In this document: positions 113 through 11,080 of the stretch, in pieces
How positions within the stretch are numbered: position 1 is the stretch's first letter
Layout: every line of letters starts with the position of its first letter
From: Bradyrhizobium sp. CCBAU 53340
GTDB lineage: Bacteria; Pseudomonadota; Alphaproteobacteria; Rhizobiales; Xanthobacteraceae
NCBI RefSeq assembly: GCF_015291645.1
Contig: NZ_CP030055.1
Location: 310,001 to 374,000, forward strand
Length of the DNA stretch: 64,000 nt
Direction: 5' to 3'
Notes under the pieces: model-generated
What the model was told of the DNA's origin: nothing
Seen by the model: the letters and a program-made list of their open reading frames with translations, nothing else
The model's database searches: none
Position numbers and translations under genes: made by a program

Positions 113-1459
113 TCAGGATTTAACGAGCCGGGCCGCGAAAAACCCGTCGAGCCCGCCGAGCTTCGGGTCGGCGTGCGGCAGATGGCTCGGCAAAGTCCGG
201 AGATCGCCCTCTTTGGTGATGATCTCGCTGAGCCCGGAGACCTCGCTGGCCTCGATCGGCACGCGGCGAAGCGCCGGCTCTGCGGCCAGCAAGGTGGCGA
301 TGGCCTGCTCGCCCTCTTCCGGTTCCAACGAGCAGGTGCAGTAGACCAGCGTCCCGCCCGGCTTGAGCAGTGAGACGGATTTCTTCAGCAGCCGCTGCTG
401 GAGCACGGTCATCGCGGCGACGTCCGACTCCTGCCGCAACCATGCGACGTCGGGGTGCCGGCGGATCGTCCCGGTCGAGGTGCAGGGTGCGTCGATCAGG
501 ACTCCATCGAAGCCCTCTGCCGGCCCCGCCCATTCCACGGCGTCGGCAACGACGGTCTCGGCCTGGAGCGACAGCCGGCTCAGGTTTTCGCGCAGGCGCG
601 CCACCCGGGCGGGCGAGCGGTCGAGCGCGGTGACGCGCGCGCCTGCTAGCACCAGCTGTGCGGTCTTGCCGCCGGGCGCGGCACAGAGATCGGCGATGGA
701 TTTGCCCTTGATGTCGCCGAACAGCCGGACCGGCAGCGCGGCAGCGGCGTCCTGCACCCACCATTGTCCTTCGGCGAAACCGGGCAGCATGGTCACCGAG
801 CCGTGCAGCAGCGTGCGGACCGAGCCGGTCGGCAGCACCTCGCCATGCAGCCGGCTCGCCCATTGCGCAGCGTCGGACTTCACGGTCAGGTCGAGCGAAG
901 GTTCGTGGCCGAGCGCGAGCGCTATCTCCCGCGCGGTCGCCTCGCCGTAATGCACGCTCCAGCGCGCCAGCAGCCAGGGCGGCAGGTCGAGCGATTGCGT
1001 CGCGACCTCCTCGACCAGCGCCTGGCCCTCGCGCGCGCAGCGGCGCAGCACGGCGTTGACGAGGCCGGCATAGCGTGCGGCGCGCCGGTCGGATTGCACC
1101 AGGCGAACCGAGAGATCGACTGCGGCGTGATCGGGCACGTCCATCCAGAGGATCTGGGCGGCGCCGATCAAGAGCGCGCTCTGCGCGCGCGGCGCGTCGG
1201 ATGGGATGCCCTTGTCGAGAAGGCGCGACAGCAAATGGCCGAGCGTGCCGAGCCGGCGCAGGATGGTTGCGACCAGGCGCCGCATCAGCGCGCGGTCGCG
1301 GTCGGCCAGCGTCTTCAGTCCGGGATGGGCGCCGGAGCCGTCGAGCTGGTCGTCGAGCGTGCGGTGCTTGTGCAAGACGCCGTCGACGATGTCGGCAGCG
1401 ATCCGCCGCGCCGCGAGACCGGGCACTTCGGACGGAGGGGCAAAACGTTGAGACGGCAT
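113..1459 (-). CDS. rsmB: 16S rRNA (cytosine-C5) methyltransferase RsmB/Sun
   Basis: A 448-residue SAM-dependent RNA methyltransferase of the RsmB/Sun (NOL1/NOP2) family, which methylates a cytosine of 16S rRNA in the cytoplasm. The N-terminal ~150 residues have the helical NusB-like character of this family. The catalytic domain shows the SAM-binding motif CAAPGGKTAQL (residues 259-269), the motif IV DAPC (323-326) and the nucleophile motif CTCS (374-377), so both conserved cysteines are present. An in-frame upstream extension of 16 residues exists, but the ATG at 1459 (MPSQRFAPP) fits the family better. It is divergent from the small gene at 1647 and stands alone here. The family is certain; the exact modified base is inferred from the family. 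Confidence 0.93.
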   Translation of the reverse strand: MPSQRFAPPSEVPGLAARRIAADIVDGVLHKHRTLDDQLDGSGAHPGLKTLADRDRALMRRLVATILRRLGTLGHLLSRLLDKGIPSDAPRAQSALLIGAAQILWMDVPDHAAVDLSVRLVQSDRRAARYAGLVNAVLRRCAREGQALVEEVATQSLDLPPWLLARWSVHYGEATAREIALALGHEPSLDLTVKSDAAQWASRLHGEVLPTGSVRTLLHGSVTMLPGFAEGQWWVQDAAAALPVRLFGDIKGKSIADLCAAPGGKTAQLVLAGARVTALDRSPARVARLRENLSRLSLQAETVVADAVEWAGPAEGFDGVLIDAPCTSTGTIRRHPDVAWLRQESDVAAMTVLQQRLLKKSVSLLKPGGTLVYCTCSLEPEEGEQAIATLLAAEPALRRVPIEASEVSGLSEIITKEGDLRTLPSHLPHADPKLGGLDGFFAARLVKS

Positions 1460-1646
1460 GCGAAAGTAAGGTTCTGAGCGGGCGGCAGTTCCGCCGCGAT
1501 GGCGCATGCCTTAACAGGCGCATCTGTGGCATGCGAATATGCCAAATGTAAGAATGGCCTCTGGCGATTTCAGCCCTTGGCTGCCATTTCAGCAATGCGT
1601 TATTGGACGTCGCGCAGCCCTCGATCCTGCGCTAGGACACGCGTCG

Positions 1647-1883: not shown

Positions 1884-3779
1884 CTACAGATAATGGTGCT
1901 CCTGCAAATAGCGGATGATGCGCTCGCATCCCTCCTCGGTGGTCATTTCCGAGGTGTCGATCGTGATCTCGGGTGCTTGCGGCGCCTCGTAGGGATGATC
2001 GATGCCGGTGAAGGCCGGCAGCTCGCCCGCACGCGCCTTGCGATAGAGCCCTTTGGGATCGCGCCGCTCGCATTCGGCGAGCGGGGTTGCGACATGGATC
2101 TCGATGAACTCCCCCGCCTCGACGCGGTGCCGCGCCATCTCGCGTTCGTTGCGGAAGGGCGAGATCAGCGCGACCAGCGCGATCATGCCGGCATCGACGA
2201 ACAGCGCCGCGATCTCGGCGACGCGCCGGACATTCTCCGTCCTCTCCGCGCTGGAAAAGCCGAGGTCACGGTTGATGCCGTGGCGGAGATTGTCGCCGTC
2301 AAGCAACGCCGCGTGACGTCCGAACTCGGCCAACCTGCGGTCGACGAGATCGGCGATCGTCGACTTGCCGGCACCGCTCAGCCCCGTGAACCAGAGCACG
2401 CAGGGCCGCTGCTGCTTGAGCCGTGCGCGCAGGGATTTGTCGATGGCGAGCTGTTGCCAGTGAATGTTGGTGGCGCGGCGCAGTGACAGGTCGATCATTC
2501 CCGCGGCAGCCGTGCGATGGCTGATCGGGTCGACGAGAATGAAGCTGCCCATCTCGCGGTTGTCGCGATAGGCCTCGAACACCAGGGCGCGGTCGAGGCT
2601 GACATGGGCGTAGCCGATCTGGTTGGCATCGAGCGTGGTCGCGCTCTCCTGCGCCATGGTGTCGATGGCAATGCGATACTTGAGCGTCGTGATCACCGCG
2701 CCCGATGAGGCGGTGCCGCATTTGAGCACGTAGCGCCGGCCCGGCGCCATGGCCTCGTCGTCGAACCAGACCAGATGCGCCGCCAGCTGATCCGAGACGA
2801 GCGGCGCTGCTCCCGACGTCAGCACGTCACCGCGGCTGACGTCGATCTCGTCGGTCAATGTGAGCGTCACCGATTCGCCGGCTGCAGCCCGATCGCGCTC
2901 GCCGTCAGGCGTGAGAATGCGCGCGATGTGCGCGCGACGGCCCGACGGCTGCACGGTGACAGCCTCGCCGGTTGCAATCGCCCCGCTGGCGATCCGTCCG
3001 CAGAAACCGCGAAAATCCGCATGCGGGCGGTTGACCCATTGCACCGGCAACCGGAACGGCCGTCCCGAGATTCCGCCGGTAACGTCGACCGATTCCAGGT
3101 AGGTCGTGACCGTCGGCCCGGTGTACCAGGGCATTCGCGTGCTCGCGACGGCGATGTTGTCGCCGTCTGGCGCCACGACCGGAATGCATTGGACCTGGGA
3201 GATACCGAGCTGGCCGGCCAGGGTCAGATATTCGGCCGTGATGGCCGCGAATCTGTCGTCGTCGAAGCCGATCAGATCCATCTTGTTGACGGCGAGCACG
3301 ACGTGGCAGACGCCGAGCCGCGACAGGATGTGGCAGTGGCGCCGGGTCTGCGTGATCACGCCCTTGCGGGCGTCGACCAGGACCACGGCGAGGTCGGCGT
3401 TGGAGGCGCCGGTCGCCATGTTGCGGGTATACTGCGTGTGTCCCGGCGTGTCGGCGACGATGAAGCGGCGCAACTTCGTTGCGAAGAACCGGTAGGCGAC
3501 GTCGATGGTGATGCCCTGCTCGCGCTCGGCCTGCAAGCCGTCGACCAGCAGCGCGAAATCGAGATCGCCGCCGGTGGTGCCAACCGTCTTGCTCTCCGAC
3601 GCCAGCGTGTCGAGCTGGTCGTCGAGCAGCGTCTTGGAATCGTAGAGCAGGCGACCGACCAGCGTGCTCTTGCCGTCGTCGACGCTGCCGCAAGTGACGA
3701 AACGCAACGTCGGGCGATCGTCCTGGTCGAGCCGTGGCGCATCGGGCGCGGCGATCGTGGGAGCCTCGTGATAGGACAT
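1884..3779 (-). CDS. cysNC: Bifunctional sulfate adenylyltransferase subunit 1 / adenylylsulfate kinase (CysN-CysC fusion)
   Basis: A 631-residue fusion that, with CysD, converts sulfate and ATP to APS (GTPase-driven) and then phosphorylates APS to PAPS. The CysN part is an EF-Tu-like GTPase: G1 GSVDDGKST (31-39), G3 DTPGH (110-114), G4 NKMD (165-168), followed by beta-barrel domains to about 440. The CysC part carries Walker A GLSGAGKST (466-474) and the ISPFR serine motif (539-543). This is the NodQ/CysNC architecture. The start codon overlaps the cysD stop by one base (TGATG), indicating translational coupling. It is the last gene of a three-gene minus-strand operon that begins with the FAD/sulfotransferase fusion. 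No cysH or sulfite reductase gene is in the window, so PAPS may serve sulfation rather than, or as well as, assimilation. Confidence 0.95.
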   Translation of the reverse strand: MSYHEAPTIAAPDAPRLDQDDRPTLRFVTCGSVDDGKSTLVGRLLYDSKTLLDDQLDTLASESKTVGTTGGDLDFALLVDGLQAEREQGITIDVAYRFFATKLRRFIVADTPGHTQYTRNMATGASNADLAVVLVDARKGVITQTRRHCHILSRLGVCHVVLAVNKMDLIGFDDDRFAAITAEYLTLAGQLGISQVQCIPVVAPDGDNIAVASTRMPWYTGPTVTTYLESVDVTGGISGRPFRLPVQWVNRPHADFRGFCGRIASGAIATGEAVTVQPSGRRAHIARILTPDGERDRAAAGESVTLTLTDEIDVSRGDVLTSGAAPLVSDQLAAHLVWFDDEAMAPGRRYVLKCGTASSGAVITTLKYRIAIDTMAQESATTLDANQIGYAHVSLDRALVFEAYRDNREMGSFILVDPISHRTAAAGMIDLSLRRATNIHWQQLAIDKSLRARLKQQRPCVLWFTGLSGAGKSTIADLVDRRLAEFGRHAALLDGDNLRHGINRDLGFSSAERTENVRRVAEIAALFVDAGMIALVALISPFRNEREMARHRVEAGEFIEIHVATPLAECERRDPKGLYRKARAGELPAFTGIDHPYEAPQAPEITIDTSEMTTEEGCERIIRYLQEHHYL

Positions 3780-4753
3780 CAGAAGTATCCTTCCGCTTTC
3801 TTGCGCTCCATCGACGCGGGGCTGTCGCGGTCGATCATGCGTCCTTGCCGCTCGGAGGTGCGCGAGGCCATCATCTCCCGGACGATCTCCGGCAGCGTTG
3901 CCGCCGTCGAGACCGTCGCACCGCTGAGCGGGTAACAGCCGAGGGTACGAAACCTGACGGAGCGCCATCGCGGCTCTTCACCCGCATGCAGCGGCATGCG
4001 CTCGTCGTCGACCATGATCAGCGTGCCATCGCGCTCGACCACCGGGCGTCTTGCAGCCAGATAGAGCGGGACGATCGGGATGTTCTCGAGCAGGATGTAG
4101 TCCCAGACGTCGAGCTCGGTCCAGTTCGACAGCGGAAACACCCGCATGCTTTCGCCCGGCGCGAGCATCGTGTTGTACAGGCTCCATAGCTCCGGCCGCT
4201 GGTTTTTCGGATCCCAGCGATGTGCCGCGCTCCGGTGCGAGAACACGCGCTCCTTGGCGCGCGACTTCTCCTCGTCGCGGCGCGCGCCTCCGATCGCGGC
4301 GTCGAAGCCGTGCAGATCCAGCGCCTGCCGCAGGGCCTGTGTCTTCATCACGTCGGTGTAGCGGGCGGAGCCGTGGCAGAACGGCGTGATGCCCTGGCTC
4401 AATCCATCGCGGTTGGTGTGGACGATCAGATCGAGACCGAGCTCGCGGGCCCGGCGGTCGCGAAAGGCGATCATATCGCGAAACTTCCAGGTCGTGTCGA
4501 CATGCAGCAGCGGAAACGGCGGCCTGCCGGGATGAAACGCCTTCATCGCCAGATGCAGCAGCACCGAGGAATCCTTGCCGATCGAGTAGAGCATGACCGG
4601 CTTGCGGAACTCGGCCGCCGTCTCGCGCAGGATATGAATGCTTTCTGCTTCGAGGCGGCGGAGATGGCTGGTGGCGCTGCGGCGCATGGTGGCCGCGTCG
4701 GGCACATCGTGCGCCGGCGCCGCCTCCATCGTGGGAGCGAGCTGGCCGCTCAT
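3779..4753 (-). CDS. cysD: Sulfate adenylyltransferase subunit 2 (CysD/NodP)
   Basis: A 324-residue PP-loop ATP pyrophosphatase that forms the catalytic subunit of ATP sulfurylase with CysN. The PP-loop SIGKDSS lies at residues 57-63, and the C-terminus ends with the usual ERKKAEGYF. The first ~22 residues look like a variable extension; an internal ATG (MRRSATSH) could be used instead. Its ATG overlaps the stop of the upstream FAD/sulfotransferase gene by four bases (ATGA), and its own stop overlaps the cysNC start by one base, so the three genes are translationally coupled. Assignment is by family; the physiological role follows from its partners. Confidence 0.95.
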
Positions 4754-7221
4754 GCGGCAGTACCCAGGCAGTCGCCGAACAGGCGCGCGGCGGTGTCGGT
4801 GTCCAGCGCGAGATCACGGATGCAGGCCGCGACCGAGGCGCGATACATGTCGTCGATGCCGTAGCGTCCGATGACCTGGAGCTGGGCGTCGCTCAGCGAG
4901 GCCGTCTTGCGGCTGCGGTAACGATAGGCCGTGTCGGATCCGTGAAGGCCGACCACGGTGTAGATCTTCGGCTCGCTCAGGAAGGTGACGCCGGACCCCT
5001 TCGTTTCAATCTGCCCGCGCTCCTTCCAGTCGGTGACGGCGCCTTCGGTGAAGCGTGCGCCAAGGCCGAGCCGGTCGAACAGCTTTCGCACCGAGCCGGT
5101 CGCGTCCTTGCTGGCCTCATAAACATAGTGCGTCACGGGCACGCCGTGCCGTCTTGCATAGCTTTCGACGCGAAGCGCGTTCAGCGACGAGATCACGTAG
5201 TTCTGGATCAGGCGATCCTCGGGAACGCGGTCCGACCATTTCTCGTGCCACGAAGCGAGCGAGCTCGCGGGATCGCGATCGAGCATGATCATGTGGAGCT
5301 TGTCGGCCGGCCAGCCGGCCTCGATCAGCGGTTGGAGCGGCAGGAACAGGCTTTCGGCGAGCACATAGGGTCCCGCCATTTCCTTGCTGAAGATATGTGG
5401 CTGCTCCGCGGCCGTCGGTGCGGCCCAGGGCTCGCCCGCATTTCCAAGCAGCCGATGGCGCAGCACGACCTTTACCGGCTGGAAATAGGAGGGCATGCCG
5501 GCGACGCCGAACAGATTGGTGAGCGCGGTCGAGCCCACGCGGCAGCGTCCCCATGCACAGTAGAGCATGGGGAAGTCTTCGGGAGCCCAGTGACGGAGCG
5601 TCTCGCCAAGGCAGTCCCTCACCTCCCACATCAATTCGTCCAGCGCGGCAGGCCGGTTCTGGTACTTGCCATCAGGTACAAGCACCATCGTCTCGAGCGA
5701 GGGATGGTCGCGGCGCACGAGATCGGCGAGGCGGTCGGTTTCTTCGACTGACGTCAGGATGGTGCTCATCTCAGGACCTTTCGGGTTGAGGATCGAATCG
5801 ACCACGGACTGGGCGCGGCGCAGGTTGATGTCGACTGCGGCGGCATAGAAGTGCGTGCCCTTGGTGGGGCCGCCGACCGCGTAGACGTTGGGATAGGGAT
5901 TGCCGTGGCGGTCGCGAACCCGGCTGTCGTCATAGCCGCAGCGAATTCCGCCGAGCGGGTCTAGTGAGATGAGTCCCTGGCGCTGCATGTCCTGGTAGAG
6001 CGGGCTGGTGTCCAGTCGGTAGGACGGACCCGTCGCGTCGACGAGATAGTCGACCTCGCGATGGCTGCCGTCGGCGAAGGTCGCGCGAAACCGGCCGCCG
6101 ATGTCGGTCACATCGCGCAAGCGCGCGTGGGCCGAGAGCCTGCCTGACCGCATCAGGTCGCGGATGCGGATGCCATTCTCCAGCGGCATCGCCGAGCGGT
6201 TGCGAAGCCAGCCGGAATTGTAGGCGTCCATGAAGCGCATCTTCTCGGCATCGCTCATTCGGGTCCAGGCCTCGCACATCACGTCGATGATGCTGACGAG
6301 GTAGGCGTAGACGCTGGGCTCGCCGGTCTCGGCGCGCGCGACGTTGTGCTCGAGATCATCAAGCGCATCGCCATCGATATTCCGGCAGGACAGATCGCAG
6401 CGGATTCCGGTCGTCTCCAGCAGCAGCTCGGAAAGGCGGGCAGCAAAGGCGTCGGCTTCGATGCGCGCGCGGCTGGTCACATAACGATGCAGGGCGTCGC
6501 GGAAGTCGTTCGCGATTGCCGGAAACGCCGCCGGCTGCACCGTGGGAAACAGGCCGCTTCTGGAGAAGCAGGCCACCTTGACGGCCTCGTGAGACTTGGC
6601 CAGCGCCGCCGCGGTGTCGACCGCGCTGAGGCCGCTTCCGAGGATGCCGACCTCGATGCCGTCGCGATCGGCGAAGGTGAATTGGGCGTAGGGATCGCGG
6701 ATGTAGTTCGGGCTGGCAGTCAGACCGTAGTGGTCGTCGGGCGCGTTGTGACCGGTGCAGAGGATCAGCACGGACGAGATGTGCGTGATGTTGCGGTCGG
6801 TCGTCAGCAAGACATCGCGATCGGGCGAGAATCGCATGCGGACCACTTCGGCATGTTCGACATGGACCGGCAGGCCGACGCTCCGGCATTGCGCGATTGC
6901 AGCGAGACGCACGGAATCGAGATAATCCTTGTAGACCATCCGCGGCAGATGCTTGTTGCCGTGGCTGCTGAGGCCGTGGACGCGAAGCCAGCGTAGAAAT
7001 TCCTCCGCGTCGTTCGGACGGATCGACATCGTTGACGGCTTCATGTTGAGCAGATGGCGGTCGCTCTGGGTGCGATAGGCGACTCCGCCATCGAATCCGG
7101 ACTTGTCGAACAGCTGGATTCCGCTGATCGCGCCGTTGTCGCACCCCGATGCGGCGAGCTCCGCCAGATGGCGCAAGATCGTGATGCCGGTTGCGCCGCC
7201 GCCGACGATGCTGATGATCAT
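4750..7221 (-). CDS. Fused FAD/NAD(P)-binding oxidoreductase (YdhS-like) and sulfotransferase-like protein
   Basis: An 823-residue two-domain protein. Residues 1-480 are a FAD/NAD(P)-binding enzyme of the YdhS-like type: dinucleotide-binding GGGATG at 7-12, a second Rossmann motif GILGSGLSA at 192-200, and a C-terminal DATGPSY (395-401). Residues 485-823 resemble a PAPS-dependent sulfotransferase: a 5'-phosphosulfate-loop-like segment [14 protein letters not shown] (558-571) and a 3'-phosphate-loop-like segment [11 protein letters not shown] (648-658). It heads an operon with cysD and cysNC (ATGA overlap with cysD), so PAPS would be made by its neighbours. An in-frame ATG at 5769 with AAAGG seven bases upstream sits exactly at the domain junction, so the sulfotransferase half might also be made separately. 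Substrate unknown. The oxidoreductase class is fairly sure; the sulfotransferase call is from motif shape plus context. Confidence 0.82.
5767..5781 (-). promoter_or_regulatory. Possible internal ribosome binding site and start at the FAD/sulfotransferase junction
   Basis: On the minus strand AAAGG (5781-5777) precedes an in-frame ATG (5769-5767) by seven bases, exactly where the FAD domain ends and the sulfotransferase-like domain begins (residue 485). The overlapping other-frame TGA in the sequence GAGATGA would be what is left of a former stop/start overlap if two genes had been joined. That is inference from spacing only. Confidence 0.4.
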
Positions 7222-7363
7222 CGCTCAATTCTCCCCAGTCTGTCGTGTTTGACCCAGGCGCGAGCGGGGGCTCGGCGTGGGGGCCTCCCAAAGCCGTTGT
7301 TGTTCGACGCGTCAGAAAGGTAATTTGCAGCCGGCCTCGTGTCGGCCGCAGGGGATGCGGGCG

Positions 7364-9391
7364 TCAGGCCGCCCGCACCGTATCGAGGAATTTCGCAACT
7401 TCGTTCTTGAGACGACTGCTCTCCGTCGAGAGTGAGCGTGCGGATGCTAGAACCTGGGTCGACGCCGAACCGGTGGCGCTGGCGCCGTGACTGACCTGGG
7501 CGATCTTGTCAGCGACTTCGACTGTTCCCTTGGCGGCTTCGCTGACGTTGCGTGCGATTTCCGCCGTCGCGGCGCCCTGCTCTTCGATGGTCGCTGCGAT
7601 CGTCGTCGAGATGTCCGAGATCTTGGAGATGGTCGCGCCGATCTCCTTGATGGCGCCGACGGAGTCTTCCGTGGCCGACTGCATGCCGGCGATCTGCGCG
7701 CTGATTTCGTCGGTCGCTTTCGCGGTCTGGGCCGCCAGCGCCTTGACTTCGCTGGCCACCACCGCGAAGCCGCGGCCGGATTCGCCGGCCCGTGCAGCCT
7801 CGATGGTCGCGTTCAGCGCCAGGAGGTTGGTCTGCTCGGCGATCGCTGTGATCAGCTTCACGACGTCGCCGATCCGTCCGGCGGCCTTGAGCAATTCGTT
7901 GATGCGCGCATCGGTGCGCTCGGCCTGCGTCACCGCGTCACGCGCGATCCGGCTGGAGTCATGGACTTGCCGGCCGATCTCGACCACCGATGCGCTCATC
8001 TCCTCGGCGGCGGACGCCACGGCTCCGACATTGGAAGAAGCTTCCTCGGAAGCCGCGGCCACCATGCCGGAGAGCTGCTCGGTCTCCTCCGCCGTTCCCG
8101 ACAGCGTGCCGGCGGCGGATTCGAGCTGATGTGAGGCTGAAGAAACCGAGTTGATGATGCCGCCGACCGCATCCTCGAACGCGCCAGCCAGCCGGACCAT
8201 CTCCTGCTTGCGCCGCGTGGCGGCTGCGGCCTCCTGATCCTTCTGCTCCGCCTCCATCTGCTCGATGCGGATCAGATTGTCCCTGAACGTGCGGGCGGCG
8301 CGGGCGTTGTCGCCGACTTCGTCGCCGCGGGCGGTATAGGGAATCTCGACGGCCTTGTTTCCGCCGGCCAGCTGCAGCAGCACCTCGCCGATGCGACGGA
8401 TCGGCCGGGCGATGCTCAGCACCGAGAACAGCGCCGAGCCGGCCAGCACCAGAATCACGAGGACGCCGACGGCCAGACTGACCCAAGTCGCCTGTTCCAA
8501 CGCAGTCATCAGTTGGCTCTGCCGCAGGGCCGTGTATTCGTTGTTGGCGGCAACCAGCTTGTCGACGCGCGTTGTGATTTCCCTGGCGGCCGGACGCAGC
8601 CGCTCCTCAAGGATGCGTGTCTTGGTCTCCTCTGCCTTCACGGCGGCGCCGGTCGCGGCCTTGTAACGTCCCGCAAGCGCCGCCAGCGCGTCGATCCCCT
8701 CCGCCATTTCCTTGTCGGCGGATTGACGCGCCTGCTTCAGGTCGCGGATCAAGGCATCGACACGTGCGACGATACGATCCTTCTGGTCGGCATCGCTCGT
8801 TGCCGCGAAGTGCCAATCGGCGGCGCTGACCGCCTTGAAGGCTGCGTCGGCCTCGCGCAACTGGACCTCGATGCCGAGACGGTTCGGAGACGCGGCAAGG
8901 GCGGGCGATGCCAGCAACTTTTCGAGTGCCTTGTTCCAGGCATCCTCGATCTGAGTTGCCGCGGCGAATTCGGTGATGGCGATGCCACGGGCTTCGCCGA
9001 GATCGTTGCCGGCCTTGAGCGAGGCGTCGAGCTGGACCTTGACCTCGCGACAAAGCTCTTTGGCTTCGGCGCGCTTGGACCTGACCAATGCGGCGTCTAT
9101 TTCGGTCGTGGCATTGGCAATGGAGTTGTGCAGCACCTGGAGCTGTTGGGCGAGAGCCTCGGCGCTGAAGGCAGATCCGATCTCCCCCACTGCGAGGCGC
9201 GCGCGGGTCACTGCGAGTTCGGCGCCCTGGGCATTGGCCTTGTTGGCGGTGTTGATGACCACCAATTCGCTCAGTCCCGCGATTTGCCCGTTTCTGATGA
9301 GCTGGTTGCCGAGCATGCCACCGACGAGGAGGACCCCAGCACTTGCCGTCAGTCCGAGCTTTGTACCGATGCGAAACTTGAACGATGGCAT
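7364..9391 (-). CDS. Methyl-accepting chemotaxis protein
   Basis: A chemoreceptor of about 675 residues from the ATG at 9391 (MPSFKFRIG), which has GGGGAG upstream; the frame could open 22 residues earlier but without a better site. It has an N-terminal membrane segment (about residues 13-30), a long periplasmic helical sensor region, a second membrane segment ([20 protein letters not shown]), a HAMP domain (after [12 protein letters not shown]) and a cytoplasmic signalling domain. The hairpin-tip motif [19 protein letters not shown], which binds CheA/CheW, is intact. No che genes adjoin it, so it presumably feeds a chemotaxis cluster elsewhere. Ligand unknown. Followed downstream on the same strand by the sulfation operon after a 142-bp gap. 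Confidence 0.93.
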
Positions 9392-9636
9392 ATTTACCGC
9401 TCCCCCACACGCATACCGAGTACTCCCTTCTAATACTAAACAAGAGCTGAAGATCAAACTCCGTACAACTACAGGAGGTATCGAATGGAGAGCGTTTGGA
9501 ACAGCGCTCTCCGCATAGGTGCGGTTTTACGGTCAGTCCGGGCCAGGCGAGACGCGGCGCTCGCGCAATCGCCGGTACAGGCCGAAGGGTGGGCCGTGCC
9601 TTGCGAGGTTCCCCGACTCAGCCCTAGCGTGAGCTG

Positions 9637-10227
9637 ATGCGTTTCCAGGACCGCCCCAATGTCCATCGGCCGCGATTCGGCGGCTCGCCGTTCCGCCGTC
9701 GCTTCTCCGGATTGTTGCCGTGGATTTTCGTGGTCGGGATCGCTGCGGCGATCGTGCTCACCTTCCGGCATGGGGCGAATTGGTCGCTTCGGCATCCGGC
9801 CGACGAGCGCACGCAGGATGCCGAGATTATCCTTCAGCAGTCAGGCAATCCCGACGACCGCCTGTCGGTCGATGTCATCCGCACCGTCGACGGCGATACC
9901 TTCGTGGCGCGCGTGCATCGGCGCGGTGGGCGCGATCTCGTCGCGCGCGTTCGCCTGCGCGGCATCGATGCACCCGAGATGAAGGCGTCCTGCCAGGACG
10001 AACTGGACAAGGCCGAAGCCGCCACCGAGGCGCTGCGCAACCTGCTCGGCCAGGGTGGCGTCACGATCTACAATCTCGGCACGGAAAAATACGGGCGCGT
10101 TCTCGCCGATGTCGCCACGAAACGGACCGCCAACGTTTCGGCGGCCATGCTCGCGGGTGGTTACGCGCGCAGCTACAATGGCGGCCATCGCGACGGCTGG
10201 TGCACGCGCGGCTGGCGCTTCTGGTAA
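9637..10227 (+). CDS. Membrane-anchored thermonuclease-family (SNase-like) protein
   Basis: A 196-residue protein with a basic N-terminus, one membrane segment (about 27-43, LPWIFVVGIAAAIVLTF) and a staphylococcal-nuclease fold. It shows VDGDTF (87-92), VRLRGIDAPE (Arg and acidic residues matching the active site) and EKYGRVLA (the catalytic Glu and second Arg). It therefore looks catalytically competent and would act outside the cytoplasmic membrane. It converges on the L,D-transpeptidase gene, sharing a bidirectional terminator hairpin. The substrate (DNA or RNA) cannot be told from sequence; homologues in this group are often annotated only as thermonuclease family. Confidence 0.85.
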   Translation: MRFQDRPNVHRPRFGGSPFRRRFSGLLPWIFVVGIAAAIVLTFRHGANWSLRHPADERTQDAEIILQQSGNPDDRLSVDVIRTVDGDTFVARVHRRGGRDLVARVRLRGIDAPEMKASCQDELDKAEAATEALRNLLGQGGVTIYNLGTEKYGRVLADVATKRTANVSAAMLAGGYARSYNGGHRDGWCTRGWRFW

Positions 10228-10234
10228 CAAAAAA

Positions 10235-10254
10235 GCCGCGTCTGATGACGCGGC
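10235..10254. terminator. Bidirectional intrinsic terminator between the nuclease and L,D-transpeptidase genes
   Basis: A perfect 8-bp stem (GCCGCGTC/GACGCGGC) with a TGAT loop, flanked by an A-run on the left and CTTTC on the right, lies between the two convergent genes and can serve both strands. Confidence 0.8.
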
Positions 10255-10283
10255 TCTTTCAATCTCTGCCTTGGTCGCGACGA

Positions 10284-10799
10284 TCAGCGCGTCACGACGA
10301 CCTTCGTTCCGACCGAGACGCGGCTGTAGAGGTCGGTGATGTCGTCGTTGAGCATGCGGATGCAGCCATAGGAGACGAAGCCGCCGACCGAGCCCGGAAC
10401 ATTGGTGCCATGGATGGCATATTCGCCGCCGGCCAGCGTCATCGCTGCAACGCCCATCGGATTGCGCGGCGAGCCGCCGGGGATGACGTCGGGAAGCTGC
10501 GGCTTGTCGCGCTTCACCTCGGCGGGCGGCGACCAGGCCGGATTGCGATACTTGCCGTCGATGCGGGTGGTGCCGGCCCACTGCTTGCCGGACTTGCCGA
10601 CGCCGACCGGATAGCGGACGGCATGGCCGTCATCGAGGATGAGATAAAGTCGCCGCTCGTTGGTTTTGACCACGATGGTGCCCGGCGAATAGTCGGCCAT
10701 GTGGGTACCCACCATCTCCGGCCGCGCCTCGGCCGCGGTCGACATCAAGGCGCCTGCCCCGATGGTGGCAGCCAGCGCCAGTGCAATCTTCCTCGACAT
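10284..10799 (-). CDS. L,D-transpeptidase (ErfK/YbiS/YnhG family)
   Basis: A 171-residue secreted L,D-transpeptidase, acting on peptidoglycan or outer-membrane anchoring in the periplasm. The signal peptide is MSRKIALALAATIGAGALMS through about AEA. The catalytic signature is intact: HGTN (near 126), then SVGGFVSYGCIRM, giving the His and Cys of the HxxxxxxxxxSHGCxR-type motif with SYGC in place of SHGC. The ATG at 10799 is chosen over a TTG one codon upstream because it has GGGGG nearby. Monocistronic, terminated by the hairpin shared with the nuclease gene. A stretch of about 440 bp separates it from acs. Confidence 0.9.
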   Translation of the reverse strand: MSRKIALALAATIGAGALMSTAAEARPEMVGTHMADYSPGTIVVKTNERRLYLILDDGHAVRYPVGVGKSGKQWAGTTRIDGKYRNPAWSPPAEVKRDKPQLPDVIPGGSPRNPMGVAAMTLAGGEYAIHGTNVPGSVGGFVSYGCIRMLNDDITDLYSRVSVGTKVVVTR

Positions 10800-11080
10800 C
10801 AATTTCCCCCAGCCCGAACGGATCGTCCAAATTCATGCAAAAAACCGGCAATCGCCTGCTCGCCCGGACATTCTAACCGCGCCTGTTAACCGGCTGGTTT
10901 CCACGCGCGACTGCCAGGGCGAGCCAGCAGGGGGAACAAAGGAAATGTTCAAACCAAAGTAAATGACCTGAAAACAACACTCGGCGGGAAAGATACCGTC
11001 GCGCCCGTGCACGCCCTGACAAATGTGTGAGGGGGTGAACGGCGGTTGTCTTAGGCGACGTTGGCGCGAAAAGCAGTCTT
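10800..11080. other. Gene-free stretch upstream of the L,D-transpeptidase
   Basis: No open frame with coding character or ribosome binding site is visible here. It should hold the promoter of the L,D-transpeptidase gene. It is less GC-rich than the genes (for example the segment around 10930-10980). I see no recognisable riboswitch or RNA fold. The rest of the gap to acs (11081-11236) is a palindromic repeat listed separately. Confidence 0.5.

Follow-up and report, generated by a model that had tools for sequence, protein, structure and literature searches.

A receptor encoded together with a synthase is a known arrangement. In the RaxST system of Xanthomonas, 3'-phosphoadenosine 5'-phosphosulfate (PAPS) is made by raxP and raxQ, which are of the CysD/CysNC type. 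PMC6637879 describes RaxST as a sulfotransferase that makes the sulfated RaxX signal, which is read by a receptor. Here we describe a locus of Bradyrhizobium sp. CCBAU 53340 in which genes for a sulfotransferase and for CysD and CysNC lie next to the gene of a methyl-accepting chemotaxis protein (MCP). The whole stretch analyzed, hereafter the window, comprises 64,000 nucleotides (contig NZ_CP030055.1; C1:310001-374000 of the 8.7-Mb genome), and its cassette consists of the MCP gene, a gene that fuses a flavin adenine dinucleotide (FAD) domain to a sulfotransferase (ST) domain, cysD and cysNC (Table 1). At the level of genes, ST and MCP form the core of this cassette and travel together; cysD-cysNC, an S-adenosylmethionine (SAM) methyltransferase and the FAD domain are lineage-specific add-ons. 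Our searches of an open-access library showed no paper linking a sulfotransferase with a chemoreceptor, none with an MCP-ST-cysD-cysNC cassette and none on an FAD/ST fusion; among the papers listed, PMC10932419 deals with gut sulfotransferases and gene neighbourhood and PMC6192434 with sulfur in the nodules of legumes.

The MCP and ST genes travel together

The MCP gene lies 142 bp upstream of the fusion gene on the same strand. Its product consists of TM1, the first transmembrane segment, a helical ligand-binding region at about residues 36-300, HAMP and a signalling domain (transmembrane segments and bounds assigned by eye). An earlier reading of this DNA, made from the letters alone (the sequence-only reading), had described the fusion gene, cysD and cysNC as a self-contained operon. 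The three genes, all on the minus strand, have overlaps of 4 bp and 1 bp (the latter as TGATG at 3779) and agree with that description in coordinates and content; the term self-contained had to be dropped, because the upstream chemoreceptor belongs to the same unit.

Among 26 loci of Bradyrhizobium and Rhodopseudomonas relatives, an MCP gene was found beside ST, or beside FAD, in every case. The ST is followed by cysD-cysNC at 25 of them, the exception (L075) being located on a short contig, so that the linkage anticipated for close relatives was recovered. Genes were called with a codon-usage script of our own, which missed the ST in L057, one of the 26 loci, and most genes in L117 and L120; the former was placed by a separate ST search, and the genes of the latter two were taken from a listing of open reading frames (ORFs) by length. 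In the homologue searches, scoring was restricted to the 8000 candidates with the largest number of shared words. A set of 34 named Bradyrhizobium loci, which overlaps with the 26, gave a similar picture: the MCP gene is upstream and on the same strand in all 34 and within 160 bp in 33, and cysD and cysNC are present in 31 and 32, respectively. At L084, broken frames lie between MCP and ST. The SAM methyltransferase is present in seven of the 34 loci (L087, L089, L090, L091, L099, L101 and L106) and was not found in the loci of the FAD clade. A copy of this methyltransferase elsewhere in the genome of CCBAU 53340 was considered and dropped, as the L109 query gave short matches only (best E of 4e-5).

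Bradyrhizobium genomes that lack ST provided a further view of the unit. From 29 such genomes, 26 were searched for rsmB (three less complete ones were left out) and 20 were read; in all 20, none of MCP, ST, cysD and cysNC was found between rsmB and acs. The empty sites mostly retain the small nuclease-like and L,D-transpeptidase-like genes. This joint absence at the rsmB-acs site indicates that MCP-(FAD-)ST-cysD-cysNC is the unit of gain or loss.

The ST is rare, occurring in 29 of 391 family genomes and, with the genome of CCBAU 53340 included, in 3 of 385 and 4 of 398 genomes of the class and phylum samples, respectively. It was also detected in 18 of 82 genomes of the family that holds Azospirillum and in 2 of 39 of another alphaproteobacterial family. 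All 20 loci of these two families, which were found by ST alone, contain an MCP gene with the ST; the two are adjacent in 18 loci and separated only by the methyltransferase in the remaining 2, in one of which (L113/L158) the methyltransferase is encoded on the opposite strand. Twelve of the 20 loci (L154, L158 and L163-L172) have the methyltransferase, and the order at L163 is ST-MCP-cysD-cysNC-methyltransferase. A set of 15 named loci from outside Bradyrhizobium, 11 of which have an MCP gene, shares 10 loci with these 20, resulting in 25 loci, 21 of them with MCP. In two cases the ST relative lies beside a different sensor protein, namely, an sCache_2 histidine kinase (L115, 4412-6817) and a Cache-GGDEF-EAL protein (L117, 3778-6540), from which the sensor link of ST may be wider than chemotaxis. 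L122 contains a methyltransferase-MFS-ST row.

After 10 duplicate loci had been dropped, the 61 distinct loci fell into 18 neighbourhood groups defined by at least two shared flanking genes (L117 and L120 entered with only 1 and 3 called flank genes, respectively), and 14 of these groups have an MCP gene. Ten genomes contained between 26 and 86 MCPs each, so that, assuming one gene per kb, an adjacent MCP gene would be expected in approximately 0.7-2.6% of cases. The groups are not to be counted as independent events, since the MCP-ST pair may descend together; the changes in order and flanks show that the pair was kept together. In both MCPs scanned from the two other families the sensor is sCache_2, and the rest resemble them. 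Since the sensor domains are not alike from family to family, no one ligand fold is common to all, and the idea of a shared MCP ligand fold was rejected. A search for a PDB relative of the window's sensor region by sequence gave nothing convincing (best E of 0.38), and a defence system was dismissed, as PADLOC returned partial matches only (BrxP/CysD, E of 4e-5; ZorA/MCP, 1.5e-7; mad2/methyltransferase, 8.5e-14).

Two forms of the MCP/ST pair occupy the same locus in Bradyrhizobium. Relative to the window, the nine other fused loci agree at 89-95% in the ST and 77-85% in the MCP sensor, and the 25 loci without FAD at 54-60% and 36-43%, respectively. The sensor region is about 103-106 alignment columns shorter in 21 of these 25 loci and of full length in L098, L102, L107 and L108, which we take to be photosynthetic-type strains. 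Outside these four, the two sets show the same degree of similarity in cysD, cysNC, rsmB and acs (~85-99%). Mixed MCP/ST pairs were found in none of the 35 Bradyrhizobium loci; the Rhodopseudomonas row L074 agrees with the window at 67% in the ST and 35% in the sensor. Four-fold sites were compared for nine Bradyrhizobium loci and L074. Five loci without FAD showed 53-58% for the signalling domain, 46-56% for ST and 63-76% for cysD/cysNC/rsmB, and three loci with FAD showed 62-72% for the signalling domain and 70-78% for ST. We had considered the MCP signalling domain (88-90% at the protein level) to be an orthologous island between a swapped sensor and a swapped ST; its four-fold sites are as diverged as those of ST, which indicates that the whole MCP was replaced together with ST.

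The fusion protein and its expected PAPS supply

That the flavoenzyme/sulfotransferase fusion is real, as the sequence-only reading held, was borne out. Among the matches listed, many records contain full-length relatives at 52-90% identity, and the fused form is present at 4 of the 26 relative loci, one of them frameshifted; the fusion is therefore not an assembly accident. Stand-alone ST relatives have their start codon at the position aligned with Met485. Five of the 26 loci have an FAD domain (4 fused and 1 separate) and 21 have none, so that FAD coupling was rejected as a general rule; the coupling of oxidation to sulfation suggested by the sequence-only reading is therefore not general. 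The genome with separate, adjacent FAD and ST genes is a Rhodopseudomonas (G247) with the order MCP-FAD-ST-cysD-cysN, in which the CysN frame of 462 amino acids (aa) looks too short for the adenosine 5'-phosphosulfate (APS) kinase part. In the ST tree (61 rows), the FAD-linked STs, namely, 10 fused Bradyrhizobium rows (one frameshifted) and 1 separate, form one clade with a support of 99/93. Judged from this tree, one ST clade has gained the flavin domain, the fusion being recent and the MCP-ST pairing older.

At E <= 1e-40, the FAD domain was detected in 7 of 391 family genomes, 6 of which also have ST. In the seventh (G420; L178, 6088-7518), the FAD frame is joined in frame to the last cysNC residues, an apparent deletion scar, and P0038 (Bradyrhizobium USDA 3311) has the same ending. 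In Bradyrhizobium sp. CCBAU 51627 (L021/L084), frameshifts that represent either decay or a draft-assembly error break the fusion and cysD.

The N-terminal part of the fusion matches NAD_binding_9 (PF13454) at residues 5-158 with an E value of 4e-33, and no PF13434 match was obtained for the FAD domain in Pfam at E <= 1. A phmmer search of the whole fusion against the PDB gave no match at E <= 10; the best profile match of the FAD domain was the aspartate N-hydroxylase FzmM (8cp2, E of 1.2e-20). The same structure headed the Foldseek results for the predicted model (E of 1.1e-22), followed by SidA/PvdA; rows 1-39 were all amine N-hydroxylases, and the top 50 also contained two MerA rows and one unplaced DiatB row. 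The model, with 44 sequences used for the full fusion (43 of 84 matches and the window protein), contains a helical domain between the dinucleotide domains (helices 239-358), and the FAD/NADP glycine motifs G7/G9/G12 and G195/G197 are invariant or nearly so. N59 aligns with Asn62 of FzmM in a residue alignment that was printed only for a weak profile match; Asn62 and the aspartate-contacting Arg13 are taken from PMC10404684. Arg13, which belongs to the aspartate-binding arginine cluster, corresponds to Thr11 here. Modelling places the FAD domain among the N-hydroxylating flavin monooxygenases, for which amine N-hydroxylation is the predicted reaction.

Residues 485-823 match no Pfam model. Sulfotransferase models of Pfam matched none of 56 sequences scanned at E <= 1 (the ST domain and 55 relatives), and those of NCBIfam matched none of five stand-alone ST relatives. 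The predicted structure, for which 56 sequences were used (50 of the 120 listed among 360 matches, plus 6 others), matches sulfotransferases, and the sulfotransferase-like C-terminal domain of the sequence-only reading thereby gained a fold in spite of the missing Pfam match. The PAPS loops it had named are also supported: R77, G79, S80 and T81, which we assign to the 5'-phosphosulfate loop (R/K-x-G-[ST]-T), and R165 and S173, which we assign to the 3'-phosphate motif (Arg and, eight residues on, Ser) according to our understanding of both motifs, are invariant in 17 divergent members. On the model, the C-terminal half belongs to a family of sulfotransferase fold that no Pfam or NCBIfam model matched, with PAPS-dependent transfer as the predicted activity. 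Such a family is easily overlooked in annotation. Among the matches listed, the ST domain of CCBAU 53340 is closest to that of Bradyrhizobium manausense SZCCT0344 (95%).

An ST relative of Burkholderia sp. WSM2232 (44%; L120, 7863-16844) stands first in a biosynthetic cluster that showed no MCP gene. The genes that follow on the same strand encode A-PCP, a protein without Pfam match, EamA, a Lys/Orn N-monooxygenase (PF13434), a DAO flavoprotein and a cupin-MetRS. According to PMC11705231, cupin-MetRS proteins and N-hydroxylase partners form hydrazines from N-hydroxy amino acids. The WSM2232 product is possibly a sulfated natural product with an N-N bond, and this second N-hydroxylase, of another Pfam family, beside a member of the ST family supports, without proving, an action on N-hydroxylated substrates.

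Both sulfate activation proteins scored above the curated NCBIfam cut-offs, CysD with 545 bits against 413 (NF009214) and CysNC with 932 bits against 715 (NF004035, bifunctional CysN/CysC). Pfam detected PAPS_reduct in CysD, and an EF-Tu-type GTPase and APS_kinase (PF01583, E of 1e-64) in CysNC. Since both exceed these cut-offs, PAPS synthesis, assigned to the pair before, would be the expected output by established enzymology. One of the four PF01507 (CysD/CysH) matches in the genome lies in the window, where a second match, and hence a linked cysH, was not found, as noted earlier; cysI was not searched by profile. Another cysD-like gene is located near a cysH-like one at C1:1.19 Mb (cysH-like at 1.198 Mb; some identities by eye), consistent with the view that the cassette has no pure assimilation role. 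A further cysD-cysNC pair at C1:2.34 Mb (2338000-2352000; L017, ~6791-9603) lies in lower-GC surroundings among ORFs that by eye are glycosyltransferase-like, which suggests separate polysaccharide sulfation. The flank names nuclease-like and L,D-transpeptidase-like (Table 1) are our assumption from the sequence rather than the result of a scan.

Table 1. Features of the cassette and its flanks, with positions in the window
Feature	Position	Strand	Basis or remark
MCP chemoreceptor, 675 aa	7364..9391	-	First cassette gene; PF00015 E 3e-32, HAMP below cut-off
MCP-fusion gap, 142 bp	7222..7363	-	No separate short ORF of note on minus strand
FAD/ST fusion, 823 aa	4750..7221	-	ORF list
FAD domain, residues 1-475, N-hydroxylating-monooxygenase-like	5797..7221	-	PF13454; profile and Foldseek matches to 8cp2
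ST domain, residues 485-823, from Met485	4750..5769	-	Predicted structure; conserved PAPS residues
Fusion stop/cysD start, ATGA, 4-bp overlap	4750..4753	-	Sequence
cysD, sulfate adenylyltransferase small subunit, 324 aa	3779..4753	-	NF009214
cysNC, GTPase subunit and APS kinase, 631 aa	1884..3779	-	NF004035, PF01583
rsmB-like flank	113..1507	-	Present with or without the cassette
Other flank: nuclease-like ORF (+), L,D-transpeptidase-like ORF (-)	9637..10802	.	ORF list

Possible roles of the cassette

The reading that we prefer, with a probability of about 45%, is that the enzymes produce a sulfated small molecule and that the adjacent MCP senses it. CysD and CysNC, as members of established families, would convert sulfate into PAPS directly where it is consumed. 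With NADPH and O2, the FAD domain would hydroxylate a small substrate, as its class suggests probably on an amine nitrogen, and the ST domain would transfer the sulfonate of PAPS to the same molecule, perhaps onto the new N-OH group. The product would leave the cell and be bound by the periplasmic domain of the MCP. We infer sensing of the product by the MCP because of their linkage, joint absence and joint replacement. The cell might then orient its swimming by a molecule that it or its kin has made, and different ST/MCP pairs at one locus would represent different signal types. The extended form of this proposal appears somewhat unlikely. It is a matched-type chemotactic signalling in which each strain combines its own sulfated (here first N-hydroxylated) molecule with its own receptor, so that kin or self direct the swimming, and in which synthase and receptor are swapped jointly as alleles of a single chromosomal locus.

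The preferred reading concerns a candidate molecule, ligand and activity; the gene association itself is well supported. A number of observations weigh against this reading. The PAPS genes vary between loci: cysD-cysNC was not found at 19 of the 20 ST loci of the two other families, both genes are missing from L077, a close relative with the fusion, and from L098, and at L094 MCP and ST are kept while cysD and part of cysNC are gone. G420 retains MCP and FAD, and its ST, cysD and most of cysNC were not found. Conversely, ST occurs without MCP at 4 of the 15 named non-Bradyrhizobium loci (L115, L117, L120 and L122), corresponding to 4 of all 25. The MCP sensor domain has no Pfam match in Bradyrhizobium and is sCache_2 elsewhere, and the Bradyrhizobium cassette showed no exporter gene. 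The difference between the two MCP/ST forms fits essentially one tract replacement and not repeated covariation. Finally, the best Foldseek match of the ST domain has an E value of 1.7e-3, none is at or below 0.001, and other P-loop proteins appear from rank 9.

The strongest rival, which we nevertheless consider unlikely, is that the MCP senses an environmental, e.g., root-derived, compound that FAD-ST oxidises and sulfates for detoxification or storage, the ligand being the substrate and not the product. It is common for a receptor gene to lie next to genes whose products process the ligand, soil and root bacteria are numerous among the carriers, and this alternative explains the same linkage and joint absence; against it, the dedicated PAPS synthesis and the methyltransferase of many cassettes resemble a synthetic route more than clearance, and we saw no gene for uptake that would belong to the cassette. 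Under ordinary secondary metabolism, the sulfated metabolite made by FAD-ST and CysDNC would serve in export or defence, and the MCP would be a bystander. This would be in line with the WSM2232 cluster and its lack of a visible MCP gene, yet an MCP gene in 14 of 18 neighbourhood groups and the joint absence in 20 of 20 genomes make it improbable. Also improbable is a modification of proteins, in which ST, with the methyltransferase where present, would act on the receptor or a partner protein, for example by tyrosine sulfation of the MCP. The sulfation of a surface polysaccharide or Nod factor, as performed in rhizobia with cysDNC/nodPQ copies beside sulfotransferases, is very improbable: the separate cysD-cysNC pair at C1:2.34 Mb lies among the glycosyltransferase-like ORFs, no glycan gene was seen in the cassette (nod genes were not searched for), and it is hard to see what an N-hydroxylase would do there.

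Bradyrhizobium and Azospirillum swim to roots, and to our knowledge most of their receptors are without known ligand. As the receptor considered here is encoded with enzymes that probably make its ligand, the ligand could be sought by a metabolite comparison between two strains. Should the product be a sulfated signal, sulfation and N-hydroxylation would join bacterial self-signalling, and sulfur supply would be linked to behaviour.

Comparison with known systems

The cupin/MetRS hydrazine-synthetase clusters are approached by the WSM2232 relative, with its cupin-MetRS and Lys/Orn N-hydroxylase, and differ from the window cassette, which has neither. FzmM (8cp2 and 8cp5), of which CreE is presumably a homologue, ranks first for the FAD domain in both the profile and the structure search and shares Asn62, kept as N59; it differs in an identity of only 18% in the Foldseek alignment, in the change of Arg13 to Thr11 and in the fusion to a sulfotransferase found here. 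The ornithine N-hydroxylases SidA and PvdA belong to the same N-hydroxylase class and are the next-best structural matches, but their identity is 13-16%, and the window FAD domain has no match to PF13434. Similarly, olefin-synthase, curacin, tyrosylprotein and cytosolic sulfotransferases share the fold and the PAPS motifs with the ST domain, whereas the identity among the sulfotransferase rows is 7-16% and no named family profile covers the window domain.

The likeness to RaxST-RaxP-RaxQ lies in the route from a sulfotransferase to a sulfated signal read by a receptor, which is proposed for the present locus; RaxST and the ST domain are set side by side from description, not from sequence. No ORF for a precursor peptide was seen in the MCP-fusion gap, the sole stretch scanned for short ORFs. 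RaxX is a peptide and is perceived by a receptor of the plant, whereas the receptor here would be the MCP of the bacterium itself, and a flavin domain is fused to the sulfotransferase. Sulfated signals are already known; a self-signalling chemotaxis system built in this way would, once proven, count as a new kind.

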